The translations under genes were made by a program, and so were the position numbers. A model generated the notes under the pieces. It was not told where the DNA came from. It was given only the letters and a program-made list of their open reading frames with translations, and did not search any database. A stretch of DNA of 28,680 nt from a virus. The stretch spans positions 1 to 28,680 of the IMG/VR virus record IMGVR_UViG_3300034980_000803. One strand, written 5' to 3'. Each line of letters starts with the position of its first letter. The stretch's first letter is position 1. Below, one piece after another: positions 1 to 12,567 of this stretch.

Positions 1-162
1 TCAATCAAGCGCTTGTGTGAAGGCTGGATCGCTGGACACTACCGTGGTTTGATCCGCAATGGCAGCGACCCTCGCTGGGTCCGCTTCGTCGACGGTCGCT
101 GGGAGTTGATTCCTGAGCGTACGGAAGTTGTGCGATTTGCCATCGAGAAGTATCGCGAAGGG
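1..162 (+). pseudogene. Fragment of a large serine recombinase/integrase (3' truncated at a junction)
   Basis: Reading frame 1 on the plus strand is open from the first base. For about 53 residues it reads like the central 'recombinase' domain of large serine integrases: a tract with HYRGLIRNG, DPRWVR, DGRWELIPER and EVVRFAI, followed by KYREG. After about nt 162 the frame stays open to 645, but that part is only the antisense of the methyltransferase gene, so family resemblance ends there. The N-terminal resolvase domain would lie left of the window. The zinc-ribbon and C-terminal parts expected of the family are absent. The family call is from memory of conserved residues, not from a search. 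If right, this is probably the phage's own integrase or a neighbouring element's recombinase, cut by a deletion or recombination. Confidence 0.5.
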
Positions 163-1722
163 TTCTGCTGCGCTGGTGTTCTCGGTGCCGTAGTAGCTGA
201 TCAGGAACGCTGCGACGCGCAGGGCGCCTTGTTCATGCTCCGGCGACAGCTTGTATTCGATCAGAGCGTGATGCTCGGCGCCGGCAGTCATCGTCGGTAC
301 CGGCTCTTCCACGGCCCGGCCAACGCAGTTGCGCCGGAGCGTGGCCAGGCTGGCGGTCACCAAGCGCTGCTGGCTGCCCGTGTTGGTGACTGTGGTCAGC
401 GGCTCGTCTGCGCCCTTGGCTGGTGTGGTGTTAAATCCGCCGTTCGCCTGCTCAATGAACGCGGTGCAGACGCCCATGGCATGCGCAGCACCTGCCGGCC
501 GCTTGTAGTTGCCGCCGCTGGTGATGGTTGGCACCGGCTCCGTCACCGGTGTGCCTTCGCTGTGGAAGCGGAACTTCACCAGGTACGCCGCAGCGAGCGC
601 GTGCTTCACGCCGCCGGCTACGACCGTGCCCAACGGCTGGTCTAGTCCGGGGGCGCGCGGCTGCTGCCCGTTTCGCTCGCCGTAGCCAGTTTGGACCAGG
701 GTAGGGCTCGCCATAGCGAACGACCCGCCGCGCGGCCAGGATGTAATGGTGCGCAGCGGCTCATGTGCGGAATGCGCCAACTCACCCGACCAGTTCGCGA
801 TCGGCACGATGAATGGCTGTGGGTTGTCCAGCACGAACTTCTTCATGCCCTTTGCCACACGGCGCAGCGTTGCGGGCGCCAACTCCTTCTTACGTCCGAA
901 GATGCTCTTGCTCGGCACGCCCCAATCGATACAGTCGGCGGCGGTGCGATACTTCTGCTGGCCCTTGGCTGGGTTCTTGGCGTGGGTAGGCTCTGGCCAC
1001 ACGATGGGCTGGCGATCGCAACGGGCGATCATGAACAGACGCTCGCGGCTGGTCGGTGCACCGAAGTCGCAGGCCTTGATAACCCGCCACTCCACCTGGT
1101 AGCCCATGCCCTCCAGCAGATGAACGAATCGGCGCCAGGTGATGCCGCGGCGATTTGGGTCGGGCACTAGGAACTGCTGCTGCACTGGTACCCGTTCACC
1201 GACGGCGGCCACGGTGCCATCCAGCTTCATCACCCGGCCGGTGGCCTTGTCGCGCTTGGCGATCAGCGGACCCCATTGCAGGATCTGCTTAACGTTCTCT
1301 AGGCTGATCACCCGAGGCCTCTTCTTACCAGCCCACTTCAATCCGATCCACGACAGGTTGCGGATCTCGCGCTTGCGGGGTTGTCCACCTGCCGCTTGGC
1401 TGTGGTGCGTGCAGTCTGGGCTCATGTGGAACCAGCCAACGGGACGGCCCTGGCACTCCTCGTCGGGATCGCCCTCGAAGACGTCGGTCTGAAAGTGGCG
1501 TGCATGCGGATGGTTTGCCGTGTGCATGCTGATGGCTGCTGCGCTGTGGTTCTTGGCCACGTCGACCTTGCGACCCAGGCCCATTTCCAGCCCGGTACCG
1601 GCGCCTCCGCCTCCGCAGAAGAAATCGACCACAAGTTCGTCGTCCTGTGGATGGAGCGCCAAGCCAAACTGGGTTTTGAAGTCGTGCGCTTCGGGCAGTT
1701 TTGCTGCGGAAAGGGACGTCAT
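1..1722 (-). CDS. C5 cytosine DNA methyltransferase (Dcm-like), C-terminus apparently truncated
   Basis: Transfers methyl groups to cytosine C5 in DNA, probably protecting phage DNA from host restriction. The 573-aa product shows motif I (VVDFFCGGGGAG, residues 31-42), a motif IV variant SPDC with the presumed catalytic Cys104, motif VI ENV (142-144) and motif VIII PTSRERLF (223-230). A long target-recognition region carries five repeats of the form EPxxTITxG (near residues 321, 362, 395, 440, 473). The usual C-terminal motifs (LTPRELxRAQGFP and motif X) are missing. After residue ~521 the sequence is the antisense of a recombinase-like frame. The start at 1722 is preferred over an upstream ATG because it has a GGAGG site and overlaps the preceding stop as ATGA. 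It is the last gene of the leftward operon. The family is certain; activity is doubtful. Confidence 0.88.
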   Translation of the reverse strand: MTSLSAAKLPEAHDFKTQFGLALHPQDDELVVDFFCGGGGAGTGLEMGLGRKVDVAKNHSAAAISMHTANHPHARHFQTDVFEGDPDEECQGRPVGWFHMSPDCTHHSQAAGGQPRKREIRNLSWIGLKWAGKKRPRVISLENVKQILQWGPLIAKRDKATGRVMKLDGTVAAVGERVPVQQQFLVPDPNRRGITWRRFVHLLEGMGYQVEWRVIKACDFGAPTSRERLFMIARCDRQPIVWPEPTHAKNPAKGQQKYRTAADCIDWGVPSKSIFGRKKELAPATLRRVAKGMKKFVLDNPQPFIVPIANWSGELAHSAHEPLRTITSWPRGGSFAMASPTLVQTGYGERNGQQPRAPGLDQPLGTVVAGGVKHALAAAYLVKFRFHSEGTPVTEPVPTITSGGNYKRPAGAAHAMGVCTAFIEQANGGFNTTPAKGADEPLTTVTNTGSQQRLVTASLATLRRNCVGRAVEEPVPTMTAGAEHHALIEYKLSPEHEQGALRVAAFLISYYGTENTSAAEPFAILLDGKSHNFRTLRNQLPATVDEADPARVAAIADQTTVVSSDPAFTQALD

Positions 1723-2528
1723 GCCGCGTCCTCCACCAGGGCGGCGCTGGCATGTATACCGCGCAGTTGGGCATGGACGCGAACTGCGAAGGCCTGGATG
1801 TCCCGCTGCTGTTGCATGGCCCGTTTGCGGCCTGGCTCTGTGCCTGGAAGGGCTTTCCAAGTTGCCTCGGCCAGGCGCAATGTCTCGGCCGCATTGGTCA
1901 GCAGGTCATAGTCCGATCTGGTTACCGGCATGCCCTGATAAGACTGATCTGCAGGGATCAGAAACCCGGCTTGCTGCAGTGCGGCTTTAATTGCCTGTGC
2001 CATCTGCTCGGATGTAGCGTAGGCACCGGCTTGCTCGGCCAATGTCGTGTCCATTGCGGCGACAATGCAGCTGACTGGGGAGGGGGGCGTATACCCCTCG
2101 GCAGGCTGCGCGTGCGGGCGATTATTAGCGATTAGCGTTGCATCAGCGGGCGCTGCCTCGCGCAGCTTGTTGTGGGGTATCAGGGCCCCGGCGGGGCTGC
2201 TGAAAGGTGGAATAATGCCTGCTGCTTCGCAGCAGAGGCTTTTTGTTTTTTGTGCGTCGACAGCACGGATTTCGCTGAGCGAAGCGGGAGTGGCTTCGAT
2301 GAGTTCCTGTTGTGTCGCGTGCCCGCTTCCCTCCGAGGTCAAGCCCTGTGGTGGTATCCCCATGATGGTGGTGGTGGTGCGACTGGCATCGCCCAGCAGG
2401 AGATCAAAAAGCAAGCCGCGTTGGTGGTGGGCGCGGCCTGCTTTCCGGCCAAGGAAATAGGCGTAGGTATACAGTCCGACTATGAACGCACTGATAACGA
2501 TGAGGGCGATGACCTGTTGGGTGGTCAT
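1719..2528 (-). CDS. Membrane-anchored phage protein of unknown function
   Basis: A 269-aa protein with one hydrophobic segment at the N-terminus (about residues 7-26, VIALIVISAFIVGLYTYAYFL) followed by basic residues (GRKAGR). This suggests a single-pass protein with a soluble C-terminal part. The middle (about 50-150) is Ala/Pro/Ser rich and low in order. The C-terminal third, with MAQAIKAALQQAGFLIPADQ and a run of charged helices, looks helical. No family was recognised. It lies in the leftward early operon between the PrtN homologue and the methyltransferase, and its stop overlaps the methyltransferase start (ATGA), so the two are probably co-translated. No function is proposed. Confidence 0.7.
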   Translation of the reverse strand: MTTQQVIALIVISAFIVGLYTYAYFLGRKAGRAHHQRGLLFDLLLGDASRTTTTIMGIPPQGLTSEGSGHATQQELIEATPASLSEIRAVDAQKTKSLCCEAAGIIPPFSSPAGALIPHNKLREAAPADATLIANNRPHAQPAEGYTPPSPVSCIVAAMDTTLAEQAGAYATSEQMAQAIKAALQQAGFLIPADQSYQGMPVTRSDYDLLTNAAETLRLAEATWKALPGTEPGRKRAMQQQRDIQAFAVRVHAQLRGIHASAALVEDAA

Positions 2529-2581
2529 GGGTCTAACTCCTTGTGGTGTGCGGGCCGGTGGTGGCGGCCCTTGCTGGGGTG

Positions 2582-2899
2582 TTACTGCTTTTCTTGCTCG
2601 GGTTGTCGAGATTGCTTTTCATCCGCCAGGTAAGCCCTGCTATCGATCAGAGCGGCGACATGGCGGATGTGGGCGAACTTCAGGGCTTTCTGGCTGTTGT
2701 CCAGCGTGGTGATGGGCAAACAGATCCGTCCTACCTTCAGTTGCTCGGCAAAGGTGTCTTCATTGAGGTTGCGGAAGTACTGCACGCGCACCTTGTCGAG
2801 TGGGATGAGCACATCGCCAAAGGTTCGGTACAGCAGTTCAACGGTGGTTGCATCAGGTGCGTGCGGCAGGCGCAGCGCGATTTGGTTGGTATTGCTCAT
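2582..2899 (-). CDS. prtN: PrtN-family transcriptional activator (pyocin activator-like)
   Basis: PrtN activates pyocin gene clusters in Pseudomonas and is released when the PrtR repressor is inactivated after DNA damage. This 105-aa product has the family core LLYRTFGDVLIPLDKVRVQYF followed by AEQLKVGRICLPITTLDNSQKA and RHVAALIDSRAYLADE. The latter pattern fits a small DNA-binding domain and its helical extension. The chosen start gives the usual family length; an upstream in-frame ATG at 3022 would add about 41 atypical residues overlapping the neighbouring gene. It overlaps the upstream small gene by 47 nt and lies 53 nt before the membrane protein gene. In this prophage it is under the leftward promoter, so repressor cleavage would also induce it. 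Its targets are unknown. Confidence 0.8.
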   Translation of the reverse strand: MSNTNQIALRLPHAPDATTVELLYRTFGDVLIPLDKVRVQYFRNLNEDTFAEQLKVGRICLPITTLDNSQKALKFAHIRHVAALIDSRAYLADEKQSRQPEQEKQ

Positions 2900-3068
2900 C
2901 AGGCTTCGGGCTCTCCCTGAGCTTGTGGCGTGACGGGTGGTGCCAAGTGATCTCGCAGTGCTTGCGTACCAGGTCGCGCCATTCTTCAGGAACCTCTTGG
3001 AGCGCAGCGTTGCGCTCCTCACGGGTCTTGAACTGGAGGATCTGGGTCGCGTACTGCCTAGGCCGCAT
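2853..3068 (-). CDS. Small phage protein of unknown function
   Basis: A 71-aa basic product (starting MRPRQYATQILQFKTREER). It contains a helical segment NAALQEVPEEWRDLVRKHCEITW and an Arg/Pro/Ala-rich tail. The start at 3068 is chosen because it overlaps the preceding stop (3058-3060) by a few bases, as is typical of this operon; a start at 3119 would run deep into the KilAC gene. The EEWRDLVRKHC segment resembles small proteins often seen beside early genes in Pseudomonas prophages, but no function is known to me. It probably depends on translation of its upstream neighbour. Confidence 0.6.
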   Translation of the reverse strand: MRPRQYATQILQFKTREERNAALQEVPEEWRDLVRKHCEITWHHPSRHKLRESPKPDEQYQPNRAAPAART

Positions 3069-3348
3069 AGCGCTTGTCTTCCGGTGGTGTCGGAAGTTGC
3101 AGATCGAGACGTTCGGCAAGCCAGGGGATCCCGGCCTGCTTCACGCGTGTCGACTCGCTGTACTGCATGCCGGCTTCGGGGTGAAACCAGCTGCCCTCTT
3201 TGATCCGCAGGTATTCGCGGTCGCGGGTGGGGTAGCGGGGCAGATTGCGCTCGGTCAGCAGTTCGTTCTCACGCATGCGGCGGATCAGCTCGTTCCGGCT
3301 GATCCCGAAGTGCTTGGAGGTCTGTGCAAGTGTGCGTTCCAAGTCCAC
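3058..3348 (-). CDS. Phage antirepressor KilAC-domain protein
   Basis: A 96-aa protein made almost wholly of a KilAC-type C-terminal domain. It has a helix-turn-helix-like start (LAQTSKHFGISRNELIRRMRENELL), then NLPRYPTRDREYLRIKEGSWFHPEAGMQYSES, then TRVKQAGIPWLAERL. The pattern 'SRNxLxxxLRxxxxL ... REYxxIKEGSW' is the signature I associate with this domain. The usual N-terminal Bro/Ant/Rha domain is absent, so it may be a stand-alone DNA-binding protein rather than a full antirepressor. It starts 3 nt after the stop of the 103-aa gene and its stop overlaps the next start. Its role is probably early gene regulation. Confidence 0.7.
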   Translation of the reverse strand: MDLERTLAQTSKHFGISRNELIRRMRENELLTERNLPRYPTRDREYLRIKEGSWFHPEAGMQYSESTRVKQAGIPWLAERLDLQLPTPPEDKRYAA

Positions 3349-3351
3349 CTC

Positions 3352-3663
3352 CTAAGCCACGTCGGCGAGCACAGGCTCGACATGTGGCATGTCGGCTGTG
3401 TCCAGCTTGCCGTTGGCGATAGCTTCGAGATGCGCCGCAACCTTTTGCGCACTGGCGAGGTTGTTCGCTGGCAGCGTCAGGCTGTTCACCGTCGAACCCA
3501 TGCGGATCACCACAGTGACCTGGTCGAGATAGACCTCGGTCTGCATCGTGGCCTTGGCACGGGCGCCATTCGACTCGTCGCGTAGGATGTGGGTGAATTG
3601 CCCGGTCAGGTTGGTCTGCGCCTTGAGGCAGACAAAAGCGTTGCGGCTAAGTGCAAAGCTCAT
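3352..3663 (-). CDS. Hypothetical early phage protein
   Basis: A 103-aa protein with no recognised family. It begins MSFALSRNAFVCLKAQTNLTGQF and has a beta-rich centre (TEVYLDQVTVVIRMGSTVNSLTLPA) followed by a helix (NLASAQKVAAHLEAIANGKL). The start is well supported: a GGAGGG ribosome binding site lies 8 nt upstream, inside the previous gene, and ATG overlaps that gene's TGA. It is the second gene of the leftward early operon. The sequence gives no grounds for a function. Confidence 0.65.
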   Translation of the reverse strand: MSFALSRNAFVCLKAQTNLTGQFTHILRDESNGARAKATMQTEVYLDQVTVVIRMGSTVNSLTLPANNLASAQKVAAHLEAIANGKLDTADMPHVEPVLADVA

Positions 3664-3833
3664 GCTGCGTGCCCTCCGTCGTTAGGGGGCGTGCAGCTAG
3701 GAGCGTGGAAGGACGATGGGCGTTTGGTTGCGACAAATGCGCAGCCGTGTTGCTTGGCCAGTCGCCGGACCTTGAAGGTCAGATCGATGGTCGCGGCTGA
3801 TGGGTGGACGTGCAGTGATGCCGTAGTGTGCAT
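3660..3833 (-). CDS. Small (57-aa) first gene of the leftward operon
   Basis: An ATG at 3833 opens a 57-codon frame (MHTTASLHVHPSAATIDLTF then KVRRLAKQHGCAFVATKRPS) that ends in a TGA overlapping the ATG of the next gene. It sits just downstream of the leftward promoter. A GAGG ribosome-binding-like sequence lies about 8 nt before the ATG, inside the 3' arm of a palindrome. The internal segment with HPSAATIDLTFKVRRLAKQHGCAFVA looks like a small helix-containing phage protein. The last ten or so residues are Pro/Gly rich. Support comes from position, start site and ATGA coupling. No family was recognised. Confidence 0.6.
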   Translation of the reverse strand: MHTTASLHVHPSAATIDLTFKVRRLAKQHGCAFVATKRPSSFHAPSCTPPNDGGHAA

Positions 3834-3837
3834 GGTA

Positions 3838-3869
3838 TTGCCTCACTCTGTGGTGGAAGAGTGAGGCAA
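3838..3869. repeat. Perfect 12-bp inverted repeat at the leftward promoter start
   Basis: TTGCCTCACTCT (3838-3849) and its exact reverse complement (3858-3869) flank an 8-nt centre. Read on the minus strand, the centre is TCCACCAC. The right arm overlaps the -10 box of the leftward promoter and the predicted transcription start is inside that arm. The element could therefore be a DNA operator, or (if transcription starts further upstream) an RNA hairpin covering the GAGG ribosome site of the 57-aa gene. With a start near 3862 only an inner 5-bp stem with the CACCAC loop would remain, at the very 5' end of the RNA. Confidence 0.75.
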
Positions 3870-3897
3870 ATATCAACCAGTGGTTGTTTTGTGTCAA
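3869..3897 (-). promoter_or_regulatory. Leftward early promoter (PL-like)
   Basis: On the minus strand a perfect -35 TTGACA (plus coordinates 3892-3897) is followed after exactly 17 bp by GATATT (3869-3874). It lies between the repressor stop and the first leftward gene and is overlapped by two operator-like sites, at 3873-3887 and 3894-3908. This arrangement fits a sigma70 promoter shut off by the repressor. The expected start is about 3862. Confidence 0.75.
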
Positions 3898-3908
3898 CCG
3901 CAAATTGA
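3873..3908. promoter_or_regulatory. Left operator sites (two repressor half-site pairs)
   Basis: TCAACCAGTGGTTGT (3873-3887, with a perfect core CAACCA-G-TGGTTG) and the weaker TCAACCGCAAATTGA (3894-3908) match the 15-bp pattern TCAAC-N5-GTTGA also found twice at the right operator. One occupies the promoter spacer and the other the -35 box. Binding by the CI-like repressor is inferred from position and shared sequence. Confidence 0.6.
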
Positions 3909-3939
3909 TTTTATCGGCGAGTTGCAGATCGTGGATAGC

Positions 3940-4671
3940 TCATTCGGGTATGAAAGATCCCACTACTTTCCCACAAATGTGGGTTTCTTCCGTGATGTCT
4001 ATGATTGGATACTGTGGATTGATTGGCCTGAGGTACTGGCGCCCTGCGTCTGCCACAAGCACCTTGAACGTCACTTCATTGGTCCTTGGCACCCTTGCTA
4101 TAACGCGATCGCCTGTGTGTGCCTCAACCTCCGGATCGACGAAAATGATGCACCCGGTTGGGTAGCTTCGTCCTGGCCCTGGGTTCGTCATTGAGTCCCC
4201 AAGTACCTTTAGGGCATAGCCGCTATTGCTAATCGGAACCGGGCAGGACAACCAGCTATCTGCTTGGTAAGGCTCAAAATTTGAGATGGCTTCGCACCAT
4301 GCCCCAGCTTGAACCCAGGAAATTAGGGGTACCTTCCCGAATCGCTCAAGTATCCCACTCACATTGGATTGATCGCCGACCTGGAGTTGGTGAGCCTTGT
4401 TGCTAGGGGCCTGAGCTTTGGGAAGCACTCCGTACTCTAGCCATTCGCGGCGTACATTTAACCAAGCGCAGAGCGCGGTCATGCTGTCGGCTTCAGCTAT
4501 TGCCTCCCCATTCAGCCATTTACTGATGGCTTGAGTCGTTTTATCAACCCCGACCAGTTTCAATTGCTTGTGAATGTCCACTCCTCGACCTCGGCTTCTG
4601 ACGCCGGCATCGTCAAGGGCTTCGTGTAGTCGTGCGCTGAAGGCAGCGCGTAGCTCGTTTTTGTCAACCAT
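3940..4671 (-). CDS. CI/LexA-like prophage repressor (HTH + S24 peptidase)
   Basis: The lysogeny repressor: it binds operators as a dimer and is inactivated by RecA-stimulated self-cleavage. The 243-aa product has an N-terminal helix-turn-helix (about residues 10-75, with VGVDKTTQAISKWLNGE). A linker leads to an S24 autoprotease domain with the Ala122-Gly123 cleavage site (SWVQAGAW), nucleophile Ser160 in GDSM and general-base Lys203 in VTFKVLV. All three catalytic features are present, so SOS induction should work. The start at 4671 lies in a 15-bp operator-like palindrome, suggesting autoregulation. An in-frame ATG at 4749 would extend across the whole control region and is rejected. No clear ribosome binding site precedes 4671, so the mRNA may have a weak or short leader. 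Confidence 0.92.
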   Translation of the reverse strand: MVDKNELRAAFSARLHEALDDAGVRSRGRGVDIHKQLKLVGVDKTTQAISKWLNGEAIAEADSMTALCAWLNVRREWLEYGVLPKAQAPSNKAHQLQVGDQSNVSGILERFGKVPLISWVQAGAWCEAISNFEPYQADSWLSCPVPISNSGYALKVLGDSMTNPGPGRSYPTGCIIFVDPEVEAHTGDRVIARVPRTNEVTFKVLVADAGRQYLRPINPQYPIIDITEETHICGKVVGSFIPE

Positions 4672-4737
4672 GGGTTGATGGTTGCACAGAGCTTGCGCAA
4701 TAGTCAGTTGATCTATAATATCAACTCCGGGTTGATA
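4664..4737. promoter_or_regulatory. Right operator region
   Basis: It contains TCAACCATGGGTTGA (4664-4678, over the repressor start codon) and TATCAACTCCGGGTTGATA (4719-4737, perfect arms of 7 bp). It also contains an extra half-site pair, AGTTGAT (4706-4712) facing ATCAACT (4720-4726), around the rightward -10 box. The shared half-site TCAAC/GTTGA recurs at the left operator. A possible repressor promoter on the minus strand uses TTATCA (4734-4739) and TATAGA (4712-4717) with a 16-bp spacer, but the match is poor. Confidence 0.7.
4693..4719 (+). promoter_or_regulatory. Rightward early promoter (PR-like)
   Basis: A perfect consensus -10 TATAAT lies at 4714-4719 with a weaker -35 TTGCGC at 4693-4698 (15-bp spacer, slightly short). 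The -10 overlaps the operator half-sites, and the Cro-like gene begins about 25 nt after the expected start. It should drive the Cro-like gene and, if transcription passes the terminator at 5019, the replication genes. Confidence 0.65.
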
Positions 4738-4749
4738 ATGGAGGTTCAC

Positions 4750-5013
4750 ATGCTGCAGCCCGACGATTTTCCAAATGCGATTGCATTCGCTTTTGAGGCT
4801 GTTGGAGGTATCGGTGCTGCTGCCAAGGTATGCGGTAGAAGCTATCAGGCTTTGAACAAATGGCGCTTAGCTGGCTCATTGCCTCGAACGGATTACACCG
4901 GCGAGACCAAATATGCAGAGCGCTTAGCGCTTGCTGCGGGGCAAAAAGGCAATCCATTTAAGGCTTCCTGGTTGCTTGAAACGGCGGCTCCTCAAAGGCA
5001 GCGGCCCATATAG
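4750..5013 (+). CDS. Cro-like repressor
   Basis: An 87-aa DNA-binding protein, divergent from the CI-like repressor and the first gene of the rightward transcript, so a Cro role is likely. The sequence shows a helix-turn-helix segment (GGIGAAAKVCGRSYQALNKW, about residues 19-38) followed by LPRTDYTGETKYAERLALAAG. This resembles YdaS/Cro-type proteins that pair with S24 repressors. The start at 4750 has a GGAGG site (4740-4744) five bases upstream. An upstream in-frame ATG at 4738 would destroy that spacing, and one at 4675 would lie before the promoter. The stop is followed directly by a terminator. Confidence 0.8.
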   Translation: MLQPDDFPNAIAFAFEAVGGIGAAAKVCGRSYQALNKWRLAGSLPRTDYTGETKYAERLALAAGQKGNPFKASWLLETAAPQRQRPI

Positions 5014-5018
5014 AAAAA

Positions 5019-5038
5019 AGGCGACCCAAAGGTCGCCT
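5019..5038 (+). terminator. Terminator after the Cro-like gene
   Basis: AGGCGACC and GGTCGCCT form a perfect 8-bp stem with a CAAA loop, preceded by a run of six A and followed by CGTTTCC. It is 5 nt past the Cro-like stop. The T-run is better on the minus strand, so it may work in both directions. It is placed like lambda tR1, between cro and the cII-like gene. Confidence 0.65.
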
Positions 5039-5049
5039 CGTTTCCCCCC

Positions 5050-5256
5050 GTAGTACCACCACAGTGCTACCGGGCCGCGTTCAAGGATGTGGCGCACACC
5101 ACGAAACAACTCTCCTTGAGCACGTTATGCCTGGCACGGATGCCAGGAGCCGCTTTCTCCACCACAGAGGGGGCGGCGTTACCGGAAGAGTCCTTGGACA
5201 GTACCGGTAGTGACTCTCTCAAGACACGCGGCGAGTGTAACACCACCCCTCGTCGC
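5050..5256 (+). repeat. Structured repeat unit, copy A
   Basis: Four CACCAC loops at spacings 40, 63 and 81 nt. The first stem (6 bp, 9-nt loop) is followed by CCGGGCCGCGT, and the third hairpin has a 7-nt loop CCACCAC closed by TTTCT/AGAGG. Compare copy B at 5327: the order of elements and the first two spacings agree within one base, though the stems themselves have different sequences. Confidence 0.55.
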
Positions 5257-5326
5257 TGGCACTGGCAGCCTTCACGGGGTAATGCCATGTGCCACAACGG
5301 AGGCGAGTTATCGCCTCCAAAGGCCT

Positions 5327-5566
5327 GCAGTAGCACCACGATACTGCCGGCCGCGTGATAGGTAGGCGGGCACACCACACAGGTCCGTTTGCCTTGATCG
5401 CACCCCCAGGCAGGGAGCCGGGGGGCACCTCCTTCACCACGGGAGGTGGCTGTTTCGCCTGGGGCAGTCGATGGATAGACGCCCCGGCCTGAGGCCGTAA
5501 AAGCCTCTGCTACCCAGCTATTTACTCTCTCAACCGCTATGCGACGCATGCACCACCACTGTATGC
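5327..5566 (+). repeat. Structured repeat unit, copy B
   Basis: Four CACCAC loops at spacings 39, 62 and 116 nt, offset from copy A by 277, 276, 275 and 310 nt. The first hairpin again has a 6-bp stem and 9-nt loop, followed by CCGGCCGCGT. The third is a perfect 7-bp stem (CACCTCC/GGAGGTG) with loop TTCACCACG. Stems differ from copy A while pairing is kept, which is what compensatory change would look like. Confidence 0.55.
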
Positions 5567-5599
5567 CGCAGGCACTGGCTACCGAAAAGGACCAACGCC

Positions 5600-6118
5600 A
5601 TGAGCCGAATTGCAATGAGTTGCACTGAGCGCGCCAAGCGCGAAGTGCTGCCCCTCGAACTCGCGCTGTACCACGCTGTGCGGGACTACACAGGCGGTGC
5701 TGCCGCCATTGCCGCCACCACCGGCCGTAACGCCACCACGCTCCAGCACAAACTGTCTCCCACCCACCCCACCCATATCGTCAATGTTCAAGAATTCAGT
5801 GAGATCTTGGAACTGACCAGGGACCCGCGCATCCTTGACTCGATTCACGCCCTTGTCGGCGACACCATCTGGCAAGAGCTGTCTGACGTATACACCCATG
5901 ACATCCCTGAAACTCTGACGATGGGCCTTGCCGCTTTTTTCCGGCAGGTTGCCGATCTGTCCGAAACCTGGGCTCGCAGCATCGGTGACGGAAAGGTCGA
6001 CGATCAGGAACTGGCTGAGATCCAGCACCAGGTGTTCCGAGGGATTCAGGGCTTATTGGGCATGTATCGCCGGGCCGAATACGTCAACCAGACTACCCGG
6101 GGGTCTCGCCGTGGCTGA
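5600..6118 (+). CDS. CII-family phage regulatory protein
   Basis: A 172-aa protein of the phage regulatory CII (CP76-like) family, expected to be a transcription factor affecting the lysis/lysogeny choice or replication-gene expression. The N-terminal part (about residues 20-75) holds the family pattern LALYHAVRDYTGGAAAIAATTGRNATTLQHKLSP, then HIVNVQEFSEILELTRDPRILDSIHAL. The C-terminal part is helical (LAAFFRQVADLSETWARSIGDGKVDDQELAEI). The start has an AAAAGGA site about 8 nt upstream. It follows the structured leader and overlaps the next gene by 8 nt. Its DNA target cannot be read from the sequence. Confidence 0.8.
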   Translation: MSRIAMSCTERAKREVLPLELALYHAVRDYTGGAAAIAATTGRNATTLQHKLSPTHPTHIVNVQEFSEILELTRDPRILDSIHALVGDTIWQELSDVYTHDIPETLTMGLAAFFRQVADLSETWARSIGDGKVDDQELAEIQHQVFRGIQGLLGMYRRAEYVNQTTRGSRRG

Positions 6119-6329
6119 TATTGCTGACCTAGCGAATGATCGCGCCCAGTGGCACCTGGATCTGGTTCTGTCTACTCGGGCGCCTTTGCCTGCGAGTGAC
6201 TCGCTCGAAGAGTGCCTTGGATGTGGTGGCCCCATTCCGGAGCCGCGCCGTTTAGCAGCTAAAGGCTGCCAGCGCTGCATCGAGTGCCAGGGGCACTTCG
6301 AGAAGAAGGGGGCTCGCTATGCTGGATAA
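6111..6329 (+). CDS. DksA/TraR-type C4 zinc-finger protein
   Basis: A GTG at 6111 opens a 72-aa protein overlapping the end of the CII-like gene. It has an N-terminal helix (ADIADLANDRAQWHLDL) and a C-terminal zinc finger CLGCG ... GCQRCIECQ, with cysteines at 35, 38, 53, 56 and 59. This matches phage members of the TraR/DksA family, which bind the RNA polymerase secondary channel and can mimic DksA with ppGpp. The acidic pair often seen at the coiled-coil tip in full-length DksA cannot be identified in such a short protein. Its stop overlaps the start of the primase gene, so it is part of the same operon. The start codon is inferred because no in-frame ATG gives a sensible protein. Confidence 0.75.
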   Translation: MADIADLANDRAQWHLDLVLSTRAPLPASDSLEECLGCGGPIPEPRRLAAKGCQRCIECQGHFEKKGARYAG

Positions 6330-8532
6330 GGTACTAGACCAGTTGCTTGACTATGGCCTGCAGCCTGATCAGCCCTTGATCTTCGGCAAGCTGACCCGCT
6401 GTCGCACAAAGGACGACAAGGGCAAGGAGAAGAACGGCTGGTATGTCCTGCATGAGCATTTGGCCGAGAAGGGACAAACTCTGATCTTCGGCAGCTTTGG
6501 CGATTGGCGCCTGGGCGAAACGCAGAAGGTGAAGACTGATGGCCGAGGCCTAACCCCGGAAGAGCGTGAAGTGATGCGGGCCCGGCAGGCCGATGCCAAA
6601 CGACGTGCTGCAGAGATCGCGGCCAACGCTGCGCGTCGTGCAGCCAAGCGGGCGGAAGCTCTGTTCAAGCGGATGCCCGAGAAGGGGCGTAGTGCTTATC
6701 TTGATCGAAAGCAGGTGGTCGGTTTTGGCGTTCGTTACGCACCGAAGTCTGGCGCGGTGCTCGTCCCGATGCAGAATGCTCAGGACGCCATAGTCGGCTT
6801 GCAGGTGATTTTCCCGGCGGTCCAAGAGGATACTGGGCGCGACAAGTCCTACTGGCCGCACGGCATGGCCAAGGATGGTGCTTTCCACATGATCGGTGGC
6901 CATCCCGAGCCAGGGGAGCCGGTGCTGGTGTGTGAGGGGTACGCCACAGGCGCTAGTCTGCACATGGCGACCTCCCAGGCGGTGGCCATTGCATTCGATG
7001 CGGGCAACCTGATGGCTGTGGCCAAGCACATGCGCGAGCGTTTCCCCGGCCGATCCATCATCATTTGCCGCGATGACGACTGGAAAACGAAGCGGCCGAC
7101 GGGCGAGCCTTGGAATCCTGGTGAGGAAAAGGCCAACAACGCTGCTGTGGTGGTAGGTGGCCAGGTGGTCGGCCCGATCTTCTCGGTCGAGCGCGAAGCC
7201 AAGTGGACCGATTTCAACGACCTGCACTGCGCCGAAGGCCTCGAGGCAGTTCGTCGGCAGGTCACGGCGGTGATCAAGCCCCCGGCTACTGGTGGCTGGA
7301 AAGACATGCTGGCCAGGACCGAGAGCGGCGCCCTGATCGCTCATATGCAGAACGTCGAACTGATCCTTGCCAATGATGAACGTTGGAGCGGTGTGATCGG
7401 CTACAACGCCTTCAGCTCGAAGATCATGCGTCTTCGTGCCGCGCCCTATGGCGGTGTGCCGGGGGAATGGAGCGACATCGACGACATGCGCGTGATGAAG
7501 TGGCTGGCTCAGCAGGGGTTGCGTGTCAAGGCTTCCCATGTGGTCGAAGCGGTCAGTGTTGTGGCGCACGACAACTCCTTCCATCCGGTGTGTTCCTACC
7601 TGGCCAAGCTCGAATGGGATCGTGTGCCACGCCTCGAGCGCTGGCTTCATGAAATCTTCGGCGTCCCACGGAACGAATACAGCGCCAAGGTCGGGAAGCG
7701 CTGGTTGATCTCGGCGGTGGCCCGAGTGATGAAGCCCGGTTGCAAGGCGGATGCGGTGATGATCCTCGAGGGCGCGCAGGGCGCGGGTAAATCAACGGCG
7801 CTGGGCATCCTCGGCGGCGAGTGGTTCATGGACACGCCCTTTACCCTCGGTGACAAGGACGCGTTCCAGGCGATCCGAGGCAAATGGATCGTCGAGCTGG
7901 GGGAGTTGGACAGTTTCAACAAGGCCGAGAGCACCAAGGCCAAGCAGTTTTTCTCGGCTTCGATCGACACCTACCGCGAAAGCTATGGGCGAAGAACGAG
8001 CGACGTGCCACGCCAGTGTGTTTTCGCGGGAACCACCAACCAAGATGAATACCTCAAGGACGCCACTGGTAACCGGCGATATTGGCCGGTCGCTTGCGTC
8101 AAGGTCGACTTGGAGGCGTTGCGCAGGGTGCGTGACCAGCTGTGGGCTGAGGCAATGTTCTGCTACCAAGCAGGTGATATCTGGTGGGTCACCCGTGAGG
8201 AGGAGGAGCTGTTTACTGCGGAGCAAGAAGAGCGTTTCGTTGTGGATGAATGGGAGGGACCAATACTTGATTGGCTTGAGGCCTCCCAAGTCGGTGAGAC
8301 GGTCACCGGCAGTGAAGTGCTGGGGCAGGCGCTGAACCTGGATCCAGGCCATTGGGGGAAGCCCGAGCAGATGCGTGTGGGGTCGATCATGCACCGCCTG
8401 GGTTGGCGTCGGCGGCGGCTGGCGGCGCTGCCGAAGAGCGGCAAGCGGCCTTGGGCGTATCAGAAGCCCGAGGGCTGGGGCCGTACCAGCGACTTGGAGC
8501 AATCCACACAGCCGAAGGAGGAGTGCTTTTGA
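6319..8532 (+). CDS. Phage primase-helicase (Toprim + VirE-like P-loop domain)
   Basis: A 737-aa replication protein combining primer synthesis and DNA unwinding. The N-terminal half has a Toprim domain: Glu206 in VLVCEGYATG and the acidic triplet Asp252-254 in IIICRDDDW. The C-terminal half is a VirE-type P-loop ATPase: Walker A GAQGAGKST (485-493, Lys491), Walker B-like VELGELD (525-531), then FAGTTNQDEYLKDATGNRRYWPV, whose Asn-Arg-Arg is a typical sensor/arginine-finger region. A basic, Ala-rich stretch (about 85-120) probably links an N-terminal module of unknown role. No CHC2 zinc finger was seen. It starts inside the zinc-finger gene and its stop overlaps the next start. It probably acts at the origin-like region near 8957-9173. 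Confidence 0.88.
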   Translation: MLDKVLDQLLDYGLQPDQPLIFGKLTRCRTKDDKGKEKNGWYVLHEHLAEKGQTLIFGSFGDWRLGETQKVKTDGRGLTPEEREVMRARQADAKRRAAEIAANAARRAAKRAEALFKRMPEKGRSAYLDRKQVVGFGVRYAPKSGAVLVPMQNAQDAIVGLQVIFPAVQEDTGRDKSYWPHGMAKDGAFHMIGGHPEPGEPVLVCEGYATGASLHMATSQAVAIAFDAGNLMAVAKHMRERFPGRSIIICRDDDWKTKRPTGEPWNPGEEKANNAAVVVGGQVVGPIFSVEREAKWTDFNDLHCAEGLEAVRRQVTAVIKPPATGGWKDMLARTESGALIAHMQNVELILANDERWSGVIGYNAFSSKIMRLRAAPYGGVPGEWSDIDDMRVMKWLAQQGLRVKASHVVEAVSVVAHDNSFHPVCSYLAKLEWDRVPRLERWLHEIFGVPRNEYSAKVGKRWLISAVARVMKPGCKADAVMILEGAQGAGKSTALGILGGEWFMDTPFTLGDKDAFQAIRGKWIVELGELDSFNKAESTKAKQFFSASIDTYRESYGRRTSDVPRQCVFAGTTNQDEYLKDATGNRRYWPVACVKVDLEALRRVRDQLWAEAMFCYQAGDIWWVTREEEELFTAEQEERFVVDEWEGPILDWLEASQVGETVTGSEVLGQALNLDPGHWGKPEQMRVGSIMHRLGWRRRRLAALPKSGKRPWAYQKPEGWGRTSDLEQSTQPKEECF

Positions 8533-8894
8533 TCAAGCACATTGATGAGATGCTGAAGCTGTGGGCGCAAGAGCTGCACACGCCAGATGTTCACGGTGGC
8601 GGTTCGGGTGGTGGTAGCATGCTCGGGCTCCTCATGGACTGCCGAGGTGATCTGATCCGTGGTACCAGAGGAAGTCGGGTACTGCTTGATGAGTCTGCGG
8701 ACATCGAGATCATCGTGAACAAGCACCTGGCCCCTCAGTTGTACGTCATTGTGAAAGAGCACTACTGCAACCAGGACAGCCTGCTCGAGCAGAAAATGGC
8801 GTATTGCAGGTGCAGTAGGAAGACGTACTATGAGCGCCTGCACCAGGCCCATGTGGCTATTCAGGGGTTGTTGAAAGGGAAGAGGGCTGCATGA
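8529..8894 (+). CDS. Putative late regulator/antitermination Q-like protein
   Basis: A 121-aa protein starting at TTG, overlapping the primase stop (TTGA) and preceded by a near-perfect AAGGAGGAG site five to six bases upstream. The sequence reads HIDEMLKLWAQELHT, a Gly-rich linker, SMLGLLMDCRGDLIRGTRGS, VNKHLAPQLYVIVKEHYCNQ, then CRCSRKTYYERLHQAHVAIQGLL. The C-terminal 'CSRxTYYxRLHxAH' looks like a helix-turn-helix of the sort found in phage late regulators (Q/ArpU/RinA-like). Position at the end of the early operon before the lysis and packaging genes agrees. I cannot tell whether it is an antiterminator or a sigma-like activator. Confidence 0.55.
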   Translation: MIKHIDEMLKLWAQELHTPDVHGGGSGGGSMLGLLMDCRGDLIRGTRGSRVLLDESADIEIIVNKHLAPQLYVIVKEHYCNQDSLLEQKMAYCRCSRKTYYERLHQAHVAIQGLLKGKRAA

Positions 8895-8956
8895 TCCGCC
8901 ACCTTTGGTCCTACCGTCCCGCTGCGGTCCTGCCGTGTTTTTCGCAGGTTAGCCCA

Positions 8957-9173
8957 GTCCCAGCCCGCGCAGTTCGCGGGCTGTCCCACCGTCCCACCGC
9001 TCACACGAAGGCGCGCACATAGGGCGCATGCAACGCGTTACACGCGCGTTGCGCGCAGCGTGCTTTTAATATCTCTCTTTACACGGGAAAGGGTTAATAA
9101 CAGTTAGACAGTGGGACAGCCCTTGATTTTCGGGGGCTCCACAGGTCCCACTATCGCCACCTCCATTGGGACC
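8957..9173. other. Repeat-rich intergenic region, possible replication origin or late control site
   Basis: No gene is seen between 8895 and 9406. GTCCCAC occurs at 8983-8989, 8991-8997, 9145-9151 and, inverted, at 9111-9117, with near copies at 8916, 8957 and 9168. There are three strong stems: CAGCCCGCG/CGCGGGCTG (8961-8969/8975-8983), GCAACGCG/CGCGTTGC (9030-9037/9045-9052), and AGTGGGACAGCCC pairing around 9110-9122/9134-9152. An AT-rich patch lies at 9062-9102. Iteron-like repeats plus an AT-rich patch next to the primase-helicase suggest an origin. A late promoter or Q-response site is the alternative. Confidence 0.4.
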
Positions 9174-9365
9174 TATGGGGCAGCGCCAAAGTAAAGCTAA
9201 GCCGGGAAGGTGTATTCCCCCGAGATTCGCCAGACATTCCCAAGACGTTTACCCCTTATTGCCGGGTGGCATTAAAACCCGCTTGCTGCCAGGAAACTCG
9301 ACCTGCAAAATGTACCCATCTTCGAGACGTGCGGGCGCACAAAGCGGCCCGCCAAACACTGAAAA

Positions 9366-9390
9366 CCCCGGCCTTGGTGCCGGGGTTTTT
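9366..9390 (+). terminator. Rho-independent terminator before the holin gene
   Basis: CCCCGGC (9366-9372) and GCCGGGG (9379-9385) form a perfect 7-bp GC stem with a 6-nt loop, followed by TTTTTG and preceded by AAAA. It would end a transcript coming from the early operon or from the 9170-9360 interval, in which no gene was found. The lysis and packaging genes beyond it would need antitermination or another promoter. Confidence 0.8.
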
Positions 9391-9406
9391 GCATTTGGGG
9401 GATTCG

Positions 9407-9754
9407 ATGAACAGCGAGCAGCAAGCGTTAGTTGAGATGCCAATCTGGTTGGTGATCTTCCTGTCCTTGGTCGGCGGCGTCTCAGGCGAGATGTGGCGGG
9501 CCGACATGGCCGGCGTTAGCGGCTGGTTCATTTTCCGTCAGGTGCTGCTGCGTTCAGGCGCCTGTGTAGTATGCGGGCTGTCGACCATCATGCTGCTGTA
9601 CTCGGCCGGTATGTCCATGTGGTCGGCAAGCGCCATTGGTTGCCTCACCGCTACTGCTGGTGCGGATGTCGCCATCGGCTTGTACAAGCGCTGGGTCGCC
9701 AAGCGTCTGGGCGTCTGCGATGTCCAGCCCCGGAGTGGTGAACCTGGTCAGTGA
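9407..9754 (+). CDS. Putative holin
   Basis: A 115-aa membrane protein with three hydrophobic stretches: about residues 11-26 (MPIWLVIFLSLVGGVS), 36-65 (WFIFRQVLLRSGACVVCGLSTIMLLYSAGM) and 68-87 (WSASAIGCLTATAGADVAIG). It ends in a basic cytoplasmic tail (LYKRWVAKRLG). Size, topology and position between early control and packaging genes fit a phage holin, which forms inner-membrane holes to time lysis. The start at 9407 is chosen because the upstream extension would cross the terminator. No endolysin follows, which is unusual. Confidence 0.65.
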   Translation: MNSEQQALVEMPIWLVIFLSLVGGVSGEMWRADMAGVSGWFIFRQVLLRSGACVVCGLSTIMLLYSAGMSMWSASAIGCLTATAGADVAIGLYKRWVAKRLGVCDVQPRSGEPGQ

Positions 9755-9914
9755 TCTGACCGCCAGCCCCGGCGGGGCCGGGGACCCTGGTGATATGGCC
9801 GGGGTACGGGGCAGGAAACCCGCGGCTCTTCGCTAGCGGACAGTTCACCAGCTTAGTGAACTGCGGTGAACTGGTTAACCCCCCGAATTCATTGGGTGAA
9901 CTGGACTTTCCGAC
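9755..9914. other. cos-like site upstream of the small terminase gene
   Basis: GTGAACTG occurs three times (9856-9863, 9866-9873, 9896-9903) and once inverted as CAGTTCAC (9841-9848), making an 8-bp inverted repeat with a 7-nt centre. A GC-rich stretch (about 9766-9785 and 9802-9822) precedes these repeats. In lambda the gpNu1-binding R sites of cosB occur as three repeats beside the Nu1 gene and cosN lies alongside. Position and repeat number agree here. Exact cut sites cannot be read. Confidence 0.45.
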
Positions 9915-10514
9915 ATGACTTATCTCACCAAATCGGAGTTCGCCGCCCGCCACGGATGGTCGAAATCCTACGTTTCAAAACTCGGCAAGCAAGAGCGCCT
10001 GGTGCTTTGCTCGGACGGCAAGGTCGACGTCGAAGCCACCGAGGCGCTGCTGGCCGAATCGGCCGATCCGAGCAAGGCCGCCGTCGCGGCTCGGCATGAA
10101 GAAAACCGAGTCGAGCGGGATGTGCGTAGTCACCTCCAACCTGGCGGCGACACACCTGCGGTGCAGCAACCGGAACTGTCGCCTTCTGGTGGCCCTAATT
10201 TCCAGCGATCGAAGGCTCATCGCGAGTTCTACCTTGCGGGTCTGGCGGAGACCGAGTTCTACAAGGTTCGAGGCAATCTGGTTGAGCGGGCCGCAGTCGA
10301 AGGCGCGGCGTTCGCAGCGGGGAGGCTGCTTCGTGAGCAGTTTTTCGGCTTGGCCCCACAGCTAGCTGGCGAGCTGGTTGGGATGAGCGACTTGTGGGAA
10401 GTCGAGAGGCACCTCATTGACACTTTCCGTCGGGTCTTCACCGAAGCCGCAAACATGAACAGCGCCGATCTCGAACAGGCCATTGGCCTGAAAAAATCCA
10501 CTAACCAGAGCTGA
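9915..10514 (+). CDS. Terminase small subunit (Nu1-like)
   Basis: A 199-aa protein with an N-terminal winged-helix DNA-binding domain (YLTKSEFAARHGWSKSYVSKL, about residues 3-23, then DGKVDVEATEALLAES). This is the pattern of lambda gpNu1-like subunits that recognise cos. A middle linker (60-95) is polar. The C-terminal helical part (HREFYLAGLAETEFYKVRGNLVERAAVEG ... EVERHLIDTFRRVFTEAA) would contact the large subunit. It directly precedes the large subunit gene, and GTGAACTG repeats lie just upstream as candidate binding sites. There is no clear ribosome binding site before the ATG. It is longer than the small subunits of several other phages but usual for this Pseudomonas type. Confidence 0.82.
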   Translation: MTYLTKSEFAARHGWSKSYVSKLGKQERLVLCSDGKVDVEATEALLAESADPSKAAVAARHEENRVERDVRSHLQPGGDTPAVQQPELSPSGGPNFQRSKAHREFYLAGLAETEFYKVRGNLVERAAVEGAAFAAGRLLREQFFGLAPQLAGELVGMSDLWEVERHLIDTFRRVFTEAANMNSADLEQAIGLKKSTNQS

Positions 10515-10518
10515 GCTT

Positions 10519-12567
10519 ATGCCCACCGGATACGCAGACGGTGCAGAGGTGTACCGCGAAGCGTTTTGCCGTGGGCTTACGCCTGACCCTGATCTTTGGG
10601 TCGACGAATGGGCAGATGAGTACATGCGAATCCCGCGTGGTACCGGTGCCGCAGAGCCTGGCAAGTATCGCACCGCGCGTACGCCGTATGCCCGCGAACC
10701 TATGCGCTGCCTGTCACCTGCTCACCCGTGCAAGCGGGTGGTAACCAAAATCGCCTCGCAGCTGATGAAAACGCAGATCGCCCTGAACTGGATCGGAGCG
10801 CTAATCCACATGGCTCCGGCCAACATCTTGACGCTACTGCCCACCGGGAGCTTGGCGAAGCGGGTGTCTTCTCGGATCGGCAAGACCATCGATTCAGTCC
10901 CTGAGCTGAAAGCGCGGGTGGCGGCTGTCCGGTCCAGGGATTCCCGTAATACATTGGATACCAAGGAATTTGATGGTGGCGCACTGTTTGCCACTACGGC
11001 CGGCTCGGCGGCCAACCTGTCTGAGCTTTCGGCTCGGTATGTGTATGGCGATGAGGTTGATCGATGGGAGGTGGACGTCAACCAGGAAGGTGACCCGATC
11101 AAGCTGGCCGAAGCTAGGGGTAGTACGTTTGGGCGTAACGCTAAGTTCTACTTTTCTAGCTCTCCGCTCATCAAGGGCATGTCACGAATTGATGACCTCT
11201 ACATGATGGGGGATCAGCGGCACTACTACGTGCCTTGCCCGCATTGCGGGCACATGCAGGTGTTGGTCTGGGAGCGGCTGTTGTATTCGGCTGATTTCAG
11301 CACCACGCACTACCAGTGCGCGGGATCTGAGTGCGATGTGCTCATTGAGGAGCACCACAAGGCAGATATGCTGACCAAAGGTGAGTGGCGCGCTCATGCG
11401 CAAGGTGATGGCGAGACGGTGAGCTTCCACTTAAGTGCGTTATATGCCCCTTTAGGTTGGCAATCTTGGGCCACGTTGGCTCGGGAATATGAAGAAGCCA
11501 AGCTTGCTCAGAATCGCGGCAATCTGCACCCCATGCAGGTTTTCTACAACACCCGGTTGGCTGAGGTCTGGGATAGCGCAATTGAGCAGACCAAGGCCGA
11601 GGTGCTGCAGGCCCGCGCGCTGCAGGAGGACTACGTCCTGGGCACCTTGCCTGTGGGAGCGCTGGCGCTGACGGCCTCCGTTGACGTCCAAGCCAACCGC
11701 CTCGAGATGATGGTTATGGCCTGGGGCGCCGGCATGGAGCGCTGGATAGTAGATCACCAGGTGATCCCTGGCGACCCGGCCGACGAACGTACCTGGGCTT
11801 TACTGGATGACCGCTTGAAGCATCGCTACCGGCACCCTTGTGGGGTGAGCCTCGCGATCCTGGCCACTGGCATTGACTCCGGCGGTCACCATACGCATGA
11901 GGTCTACCAGTTCACCCGTGTGCGTCGATGGCGCAACGTGTTCGCGCTCAAGGGTGCGAGCAAGCCGGGTAAGGCTGTGATCGCCCAGCGTCCGTCACAG
12001 GTTGACGTCACCTGGAAAGGCCAGACCGAACGCAATGGTGCCGAGTTGTGGATTGTTGGTACCGACACGGCCAAAGACTGGATCTACAACCGTTACAACT
12101 TTGAAAAAGGGCCTGGCGCGCTGCATTTCGCCAAGGACCTGCCCGATGAGTTCTTCCAGCAGTGTGTCGCCGAGCGCAAGGTCGTCCGGTACGTGAAGGG
12201 TCATGAGCGGTTCGAATGGATCAAGAGCAAAGCAGAGCGAAACGAGGCGCTTGACCTCATGGTGTACAACCTGGCCATGGCCTATTTCCTCGGCCTTCAC
12301 CGCTACGTCGAGCACGACTGGGACAAGCTGCGGCAGGCGCTCGCGCAGGCGAGCCTCTTCGAGCAAGGCGAACCGCAGCCAGCCCGGCCCCAGGCTGCCG
12401 AGCCCGACGCCGACGATCAGGACGAAGACGATACACCGTTGAGGTCTGCAACTCCGCCGGCGCCGGTCAGGCGCAGCGATCCGCCGCCACCCCAGCAGGC
12501 CCCTCGGGCGGCGCCGCAACCCATGCAACGCCGCAGCTCCAGCAGCGGCTACCTAAAGAGACGCTGA
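10519..12567 (+). CDS. Terminase large subunit (lambda gpA family)
   Basis: The 682-aa packaging motor and nuclease. Family marks are FCRGLTPDPDLWVDEWADEYMRIPRG near the N-terminus, a degenerate Walker A region around KIASQLMKTQ (77-86), Walker B with Asp178-Glu179 in YVYGDEVDRW, and a Cys pair at 240 and 243 (CPHCGH) with further cysteines near 285. A nuclease-like part follows, with IDSGGHHTHEVYQF. The last 60 residues are Gln/Pro/Ala rich and probably flexible. It begins 4 nt after the small subunit stop and ends one base before the gpW-like gene. The lambda gpA family packages from cos sites, which agrees with the repeat cluster before the small subunit gene. Confidence 0.95.
   Translation: MPTGYADGAEVYREAFCRGLTPDPDLWVDEWADEYMRIPRGTGAAEPGKYRTARTPYAREPMRCLSPAHPCKRVVTKIASQLMKTQIALNWIGALIHMAPANILTLLPTGSLAKRVSSRIGKTIDSVPELKARVAAVRSRDSRNTLDTKEFDGGALFATTAGSAANLSELSARYVYGDEVDRWEVDVNQEGDPIKLAEARGSTFGRNAKFYFSSSPLIKGMSRIDDLYMMGDQRHYYVPCPHCGHMQVLVWERLLYSADFSTTHYQCAGSECDVLIEEHHKADMLTKGEWRAHAQGDGETVSFHLSALYAPLGWQSWATLAREYEEAKLAQNRGNLHPMQVFYNTRLAEVWDSAIEQTKAEVLQARALQEDYVLGTLPVGALALTASVDVQANRLEMMVMAWGAGMERWIVDHQVIPGDPADERTWALLDDRLKHRYRHPCGVSLAILATGIDSGGHHTHEVYQFTRVRRWRNVFALKGASKPGKAVIAQRPSQVDVTWKGQTERNGAELWIVGTDTAKDWIYNRYNFEKGPGALHFAKDLPDEFFQQCVAERKVVRYVKGHERFEWIKSKAERNEALDLMVYNLAMAYFLGLHRYVEHDWDKLRQALAQASLFEQGEPQPARPQAAEPDADDQDEDDTPLRSATPPAPVRRSDPPPPQQAPRAAPQPMQRRSSSSGYLKRR

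Follow-up and report, generated by a model that had tools for sequence, protein, structure and literature searches.

We show that the stretch of viral DNA analyzed here (the window, 28,680 nt; virus record IMGVR_UViG_3300034980_000803, positions 1 to 28,680) carries, between its Cro-like repressor gene and its cII-like gene, a duplicated structured RNA built from hairpins with CACCAC in their loops, and that the same hairpin is found at the predicted start of the leftward early transcript. The CACCAC hairpin is probably an unrecognized RNA switch for early phage gene expression, since its placement is that of the transcription antiterminators of coliphages. These elements would be nut- or put-like sites on both early transcripts, most likely serving processive antitermination, perhaps with a small protein encoded on the leftward transcript. 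We give this reading a probability of about one half and rate it highest because one site coincides with +1 of pL and the others follow cro on pR.

The array occupies the 559 nt from 5041 to 5599, between the Cro-like gene (4750 to 5013, plus strand; phrog_35) and the cII-like gene (5600 to 6118, plus strand; Phage_CP76, PF06892, E = 3e-20). CACCAC starts on the plus strand at positions 5057, 5097, 5160, 5241, 5334, 5373, 5435, and 5551/5554, i.e., nine overlapping matches that represent eight sites. The original prediction held that eight such sites exceed chance, and this was borne out, in that nine matches were never reached in 2000 dinucleotide shuffles of the interval (shuffle mean 0.74, maximum 5). 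The sites form two sets with spacings of 40/63 and 39/62 and a set-to-set offset of 277/276/275 nt, exactly as had been claimed. Seven of the nine matches are within stems scoring ≥15, compared with only 4% of CACCAC matches in shuffled sequence, and the fold of the whole array region gave a z of -7.09 against shuffles (-5.2 in a repeat run on 5042 to 5599).

All array hairpins described here are on the plus strand, and the five stems reported earlier (those of H1, H3, H4, H1′, and H3′) are present. Unit 1 contains H1 (5046 to 5074, loop CACCACA), H2 (5077 to 5127, a long stem with GCACACCAC in its upper part, from the fold and alignment), H3 (5149 to 5177, loop CCACCAC, matched by our covariance model R1 at 40.3 bits, E = 2e-6), and H4 (5228 to 5256, loop TGTAACACCACCC). 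Following a spacer hairpin seen in the fold (GGAGGCGAGTTATCGCCTCC, 5299 to 5318), unit 2 contains H1′ (5322 to 5352, loop GCACCACGA), H2′ (5360 to 5394, loop ACACCACACAG), H3′ (5423 to 5451, loop TCACCAC), and H4′ (5546 to 5566, loop CCACCAC), with the 3′ end of H4′ located 33 nt upstream of the cII ATG. Alternating with these is a second class of hairpin with GGA in a small loop, represented in unit 1 by CCTGGCACGGATGCCAGG (5130 to 5147, seen in the sequence and the alignment of relatives) and in unit 2 by two hairpins identified by alignment, one with an AGGGA loop (5403 to 5425) and one with a GATGGATA loop (5461 to 5485). A stretch resembling CTCTCTCAA upstream of H4 is a candidate boxA. 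The two ORFs over the array interval had no protein family match, and the array DNA had no BLAST match among phage records. The Rfam covariance search proposed along with the original prediction returned no relevant family for the array element, either at E ≤ 5 or at gathering scores, and we found no literature on a CACCAC-loop motif or on an equivalent in a Pseudomonas phage.

The original prediction confined the element to 5041 to 5599; the array is indeed there, but a further copy is present on the leftward transcript. This copy, LH1 (TTGCCTCACTCT-TCCACCAC-AGAGTGAGGCAA, minus strand, 3869 to 3838; R1 match at 3840 to 3867), is a perfect 12-bp hairpin with the loop TCCACCAC, located at the predicted +1 of the leftward promoter pL (3869 to 3897, minus strand; TTGACA, 17 nt, GATATT). 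The predicted promoter adjoins operator-like ATCAACC repeats and is the sole sigma-70-like promoter match in positions 1 to 12000 of the window; its -35 box is kept among relatives, and the operators around LH1 vary. The first gene after LH1 is a 57-aa ORF (3660 to 3833, minus strand; PHROG match to phrog_35204), with its Shine-Dalgarno sequence, GAGG, in the 3′ arm of LH1 and its ATG a few bases downstream of the end of the hairpin. Differences at codon positions 1/2/3 of this ORF (0.27/0.20/0.42 in its middle part) are greatest at third positions, and we therefore consider it a real coding gene. The 57-aa protein is perhaps the partner of the CACCAC hairpins. AlphaFold predicts a beta-alpha-beta arrangement with a loose tail (pLDDT 75), in which we recognize no RNA-binding fold; the protein has no Pfam match, and a fold search against solved structures gave nothing with E below 1. 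Elsewhere on the minus strand, a hairpin GGGCCG-CCACCAC-CGGCCC is located between two leftward ORFs (2552 to 2570), with similar ones in relatives, and a long hairpin at 2447 to 2399, with CCCACCACCAA in its loop and followed by TTTTT within a 269-aa leftward ORF, is a possible terminator bearing the same loop.

Searches with the CII protein yielded 160 related loci, made up of 80 viral contigs and 80 Pseudomonas prophage loci, and nearly all of these carry the element between cro and cII. CACCAC occurs within 330 nt upstream of cII in every locus except L347, the sequence of which starts only 79 bases before cII. The typical locus contains one unit, with CACCAC near -283, -240, -172, and -47 from the cII ATG; two units are present in the window and 16 close kin, and L003 and L007 contain an additional partial unit copy. 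The number of copies therefore varies, with at least three consecutive CCACCAC hairpins before cII in the diverged relative L393. A relaxed scan located LH1 in 71 of the 80 prophage loci, each time at the predicted pL +1; two of the other nine are cut by contig ends, and the remaining seven (L318, L323, L331, L336, L342, L343, and L352) have an altered loop or stem at the place of LH1. An LH1-type hairpin followed by an ORF was present in 98 loci, with an ORF length that is nearly always 53 to 59 aa. Both sites are kept in far diverged phages (CII 34 to 58% identical), including the P. aeruginosa phage vB_Pae_U5 and the Halomonas phage H4907. In vB_Pae_U5, where LH1 is at positions 3281 to 3309 of locus L360 (minus strand), the small ORF after LH1 (MQRSATVHVHPAC...) lacks annotation, its place being taken by an overlapping hypothetical gene on the reverse strand.

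R1, which was built from array-type hairpins and run on both strands of 49 sources (0.94 Mb) at E ≤ 1, gave 73 matches, 47 in arrays on the plus strand and 26 leftward at pL on the minus strand, with none elsewhere in the 0.94 Mb. Strong CACCAC hairpins in 20-kb windows of 80 prophage loci are mainly on the plus strand before cII and on the minus strand in the leftward early operon. Of 149 Pseudomonas genomes drawn from across the genus, 26 (query genome included) contained a match to the hairpin model, and among 274 genomes sampled across the class there were matches only in the query genome and two weak ones. We rejected these two matches, which are in other Gammaproteobacteria: the CACCAC at one of them (L488) is inside a 269-aa ORF, and there is an array at neither locus. 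Six whole host genomes contained no model match besides the prophage copy, and on these grounds we rejected a host origin of the hairpin.

This distribution bears on the main rival explanation, in which the pR array would be a decoy, or sponge, titrating an RNA-binding protein of phage or host that represses the first leftward genes through LH1, much as RsmY/RsmZ or CsrB act. The presence of many sites on one transcript and of a single site overlapping a Shine-Dalgarno sequence on the other is consistent with a decoy, as is the alternation of CACCAC hairpins with GGA-loop hairpins such as CACGGATG, which we take to resemble the CsrA/RsmA consensus; the GGA loops could concurrently bind RsmA/RsmE-type proteins. 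However, GGA loops are common among the units of relatives but absent from some, with the preceding loop being CGAG or CTAG in L364-type units, and a decoy leaves the location of sites at +1 of pL and after cro unexplained. No host RNA in the six whole genomes bears the hairpin, which makes a host regulator with this hairpin as its normal target unlikely, and we regard the decoy as a whole as a rather unlikely explanation.

Alignment of the arrays of relatives shows fixed loops and changing stems. We counted covariation on single hairpins, since the covariation term from RNAalifold, run on a mafft alignment of complete arrays, was weak for either strand, which we attribute to the imprecision of that alignment. 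In 21 hairpins of one geometry (29 nt), some of which were chosen for pairing ability, covariation was 0.545, versus 0.219 ± 0.025 after shuffling (0 of 500 shuffles) and at most 0.163 in slid-partner controls. Among 47 hairpins not selected on pairing, 45 retain at least five of the six outer pairs. The outer stems vary by compensation around a fixed loop, and the conserved RNA fold with a constant loop that was originally predicted is strongly supported by this covariation in homologs and by conservation in relatives. Such hairpins could also act as DNA, either as single-stranded hairpins or as iteron-like sites for downstream replication proteins (primase/VapE-like), and the array is upstream of the primase gene. 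Across all array hairpins, a count of mismatched pairs gave no strand preference, as a DNA-level element would allow (99 G-U, 109 A-C), and the mean fold z of 33 arrays was only marginally better for the plus strand (-4.9) than for the minus strand (-4.4). However, LH1 starts at the promoter start site and tracks the transcript, and on the CACCAC strand of the 21 aligned hairpins G-U exceeds A-C (16 vs 5), making a role at the DNA level very unlikely.

The array had also been described as lying after a terminator. A hairpin is present at 5018 to 5039 (intrinsic terminator, 9 bp, T6, giving a U6 tail), but its strong orientation is antisense, on the minus strand, and the plus strand is weak. 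The terminator and its A6/T6 tract are conserved in the main Pseudomonas clade. Any leftward transcript crossing the array would be stopped there, which fits an RNA of the immunity or antisense type (P4 CI-, C4-, or OOP-like) produced from either strand. Against such an RNA, the terminator is missing in diverged relatives that keep the hairpins, such as vB_Pae_U5, the sites face outward on both early operons, and we found no GUGGUG or other complementary target within the array. An immunity RNA like P4 CI or C4, which formed part of the original prediction, is thus not supported, and we consider this reading extremely improbable. Two other parts of that interpretation, a conserved fold and a put- or nut-like role, are supported, the role by the geometry of an LH1 hairpin at the pL +1 together with an array that follows cro.

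Comparison of the two sites argues for a common recognizer. In all 77 loci that have a CACCAC loop in array hairpin H3 and in which both loops were read, the LH1 loop is CACCAC as well. In a clade where the H3 loop is UACCAC, the first C of the LH1 loop is also lost in 14 of 15 loci, L326 being the exception. This concerted change, which is probably one evolutionary event, ties array H3 and LH1, as judged from loop sequences, to one putative recognizer.

In our model of antitermination, the array would provide recognition hairpins in the nascent pR transcript, with a single counterpart at the start of the pL transcript. A single factor, or RNA polymerase itself, would recognize a shape made up of an inner stem CUCU/AGAG, a 7-nt loop CCACCAC, a bulge or mismatch, and a variable outer stem, and binding would most likely protect early elongation complexes against pausing and termination. 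By position, the ~58-aa product of the gene immediately following LH1 would correspond to lambda N, and LH1 may also control the next gene, the ribosome-binding site of which sits in its 3′ arm. Within this model we infer antitermination, from placement, as well as the partner and any effect on translation. A sub-case, differing in the need for a partner, is that the hairpins bind RNA polymerase directly, like HK022 putRNA, with no protein involved. The promoter geometry is that of putL/putR (PMC9378689), and a 1x1 mismatch or bulge below the inner stem is conserved, as this sub-case would have it; however, putRNA is a two-stem fold of ~70 nt versus one ~30-nt hairpin in LH1, and the HK022 early region has no CACCAC-loop hairpin (one CACCAC) and no R1 match. 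Recognition by RNA alone is therefore improbable in our view, and a protein partner in the style of boxB is likelier, given that LH1 consists of one ~30-nt hairpin whose short loop is invariant. Tentatively, the elements could form a new Pseudomonas phage antitermination system, in which the ~58-aa beta-alpha-beta protein, the first made from pL, would bind CACCAC-loop hairpins on both early transcripts and control itself through LH1, with an expandable array on pR.

Several observations count against the antitermination reading. The presence of four to nine hairpins on one side versus one on the other exceeds what antitermination needs, and the overlap of LH1 with a ribosome-binding site suggests translational control. 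The lack of a strand preference across all array hairpins, the small advantage of the plus strand in folding, the absence of a recognizable RNA-binding fold in the small protein, and the probable single origin of the concerted loop change also weigh against it. Two sense-strand terminators ~3.4 to 3.8 kb beyond cII, ahead of the holin gene, recur in most relatives examined (in the window at 9044 to 9063 and about 9365 to 9392, plus strand; in many relatives at about +3465 and +3787 from cII). Their recurrence speaks for antitermination, but both could instead be part of a late (Q-type) system. A 121-aa phrog_4300 protein is encoded just upstream of them, where Q would be (8529 to 8894, plus strand), and its homolog in a Halomonas phage is annotated as an "antitermination protein." The same scan found no strong terminator in the leftward operon of the window.

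If antitermination is correct, prophages that are widespread in Pseudomonas (26 of 149 genomes) gain a defined early-control RNA that is matched by no Rfam family and by no paper found, and, with a recognition loop, two sites, and a candidate partner named, the way in which these phages escape early termination can be tested directly. For an antitermination system, it would also be unusual to have a repeated, duplicable set of sites on one transcript.

Comparison with known systems shows likenesses to three of them. As in CsrB and RsmY/RsmZ, the hairpins form arrays with conserved loops, GGA loops being common among them but not present in every unit; unlike in those RNAs, the main loop is CACCAC, and the array is within an early phage operon with a single additional promoter-proximal copy. 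HK022 carries RNA elements with internal stem mismatches on both early transcripts, with putL immediately after PL and putR ~270 nt past the PR start (PMC9378689). In the window, LH1 is at +1 and the array begins ~330 nt after the likely pR start, so that in both phages the pL copy is at the transcript start and the pR element ~270 to 330 nt downstream. However, put comprises two stems in ~70 nt, once per transcript (PMC9378689), whereas here pR carries an array of four to nine hairpins and the start of pL carries one. We rejected identity with HK022 put, as neither its sequence nor its two-stem fold is present. The boxB hairpins of lambda nutL/nutR are also short, have an invariant loop, and occur on both early transcripts, and the gene for the small N protein is likewise first in the pL operon. 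The loops differ from boxB in sequence and size, pR carries multiple copies here, and N is arginine-rich, whereas the small protein here is predicted to be beta-alpha-beta rather than an arginine-rich peptide. The element may well work like the N/nut system.
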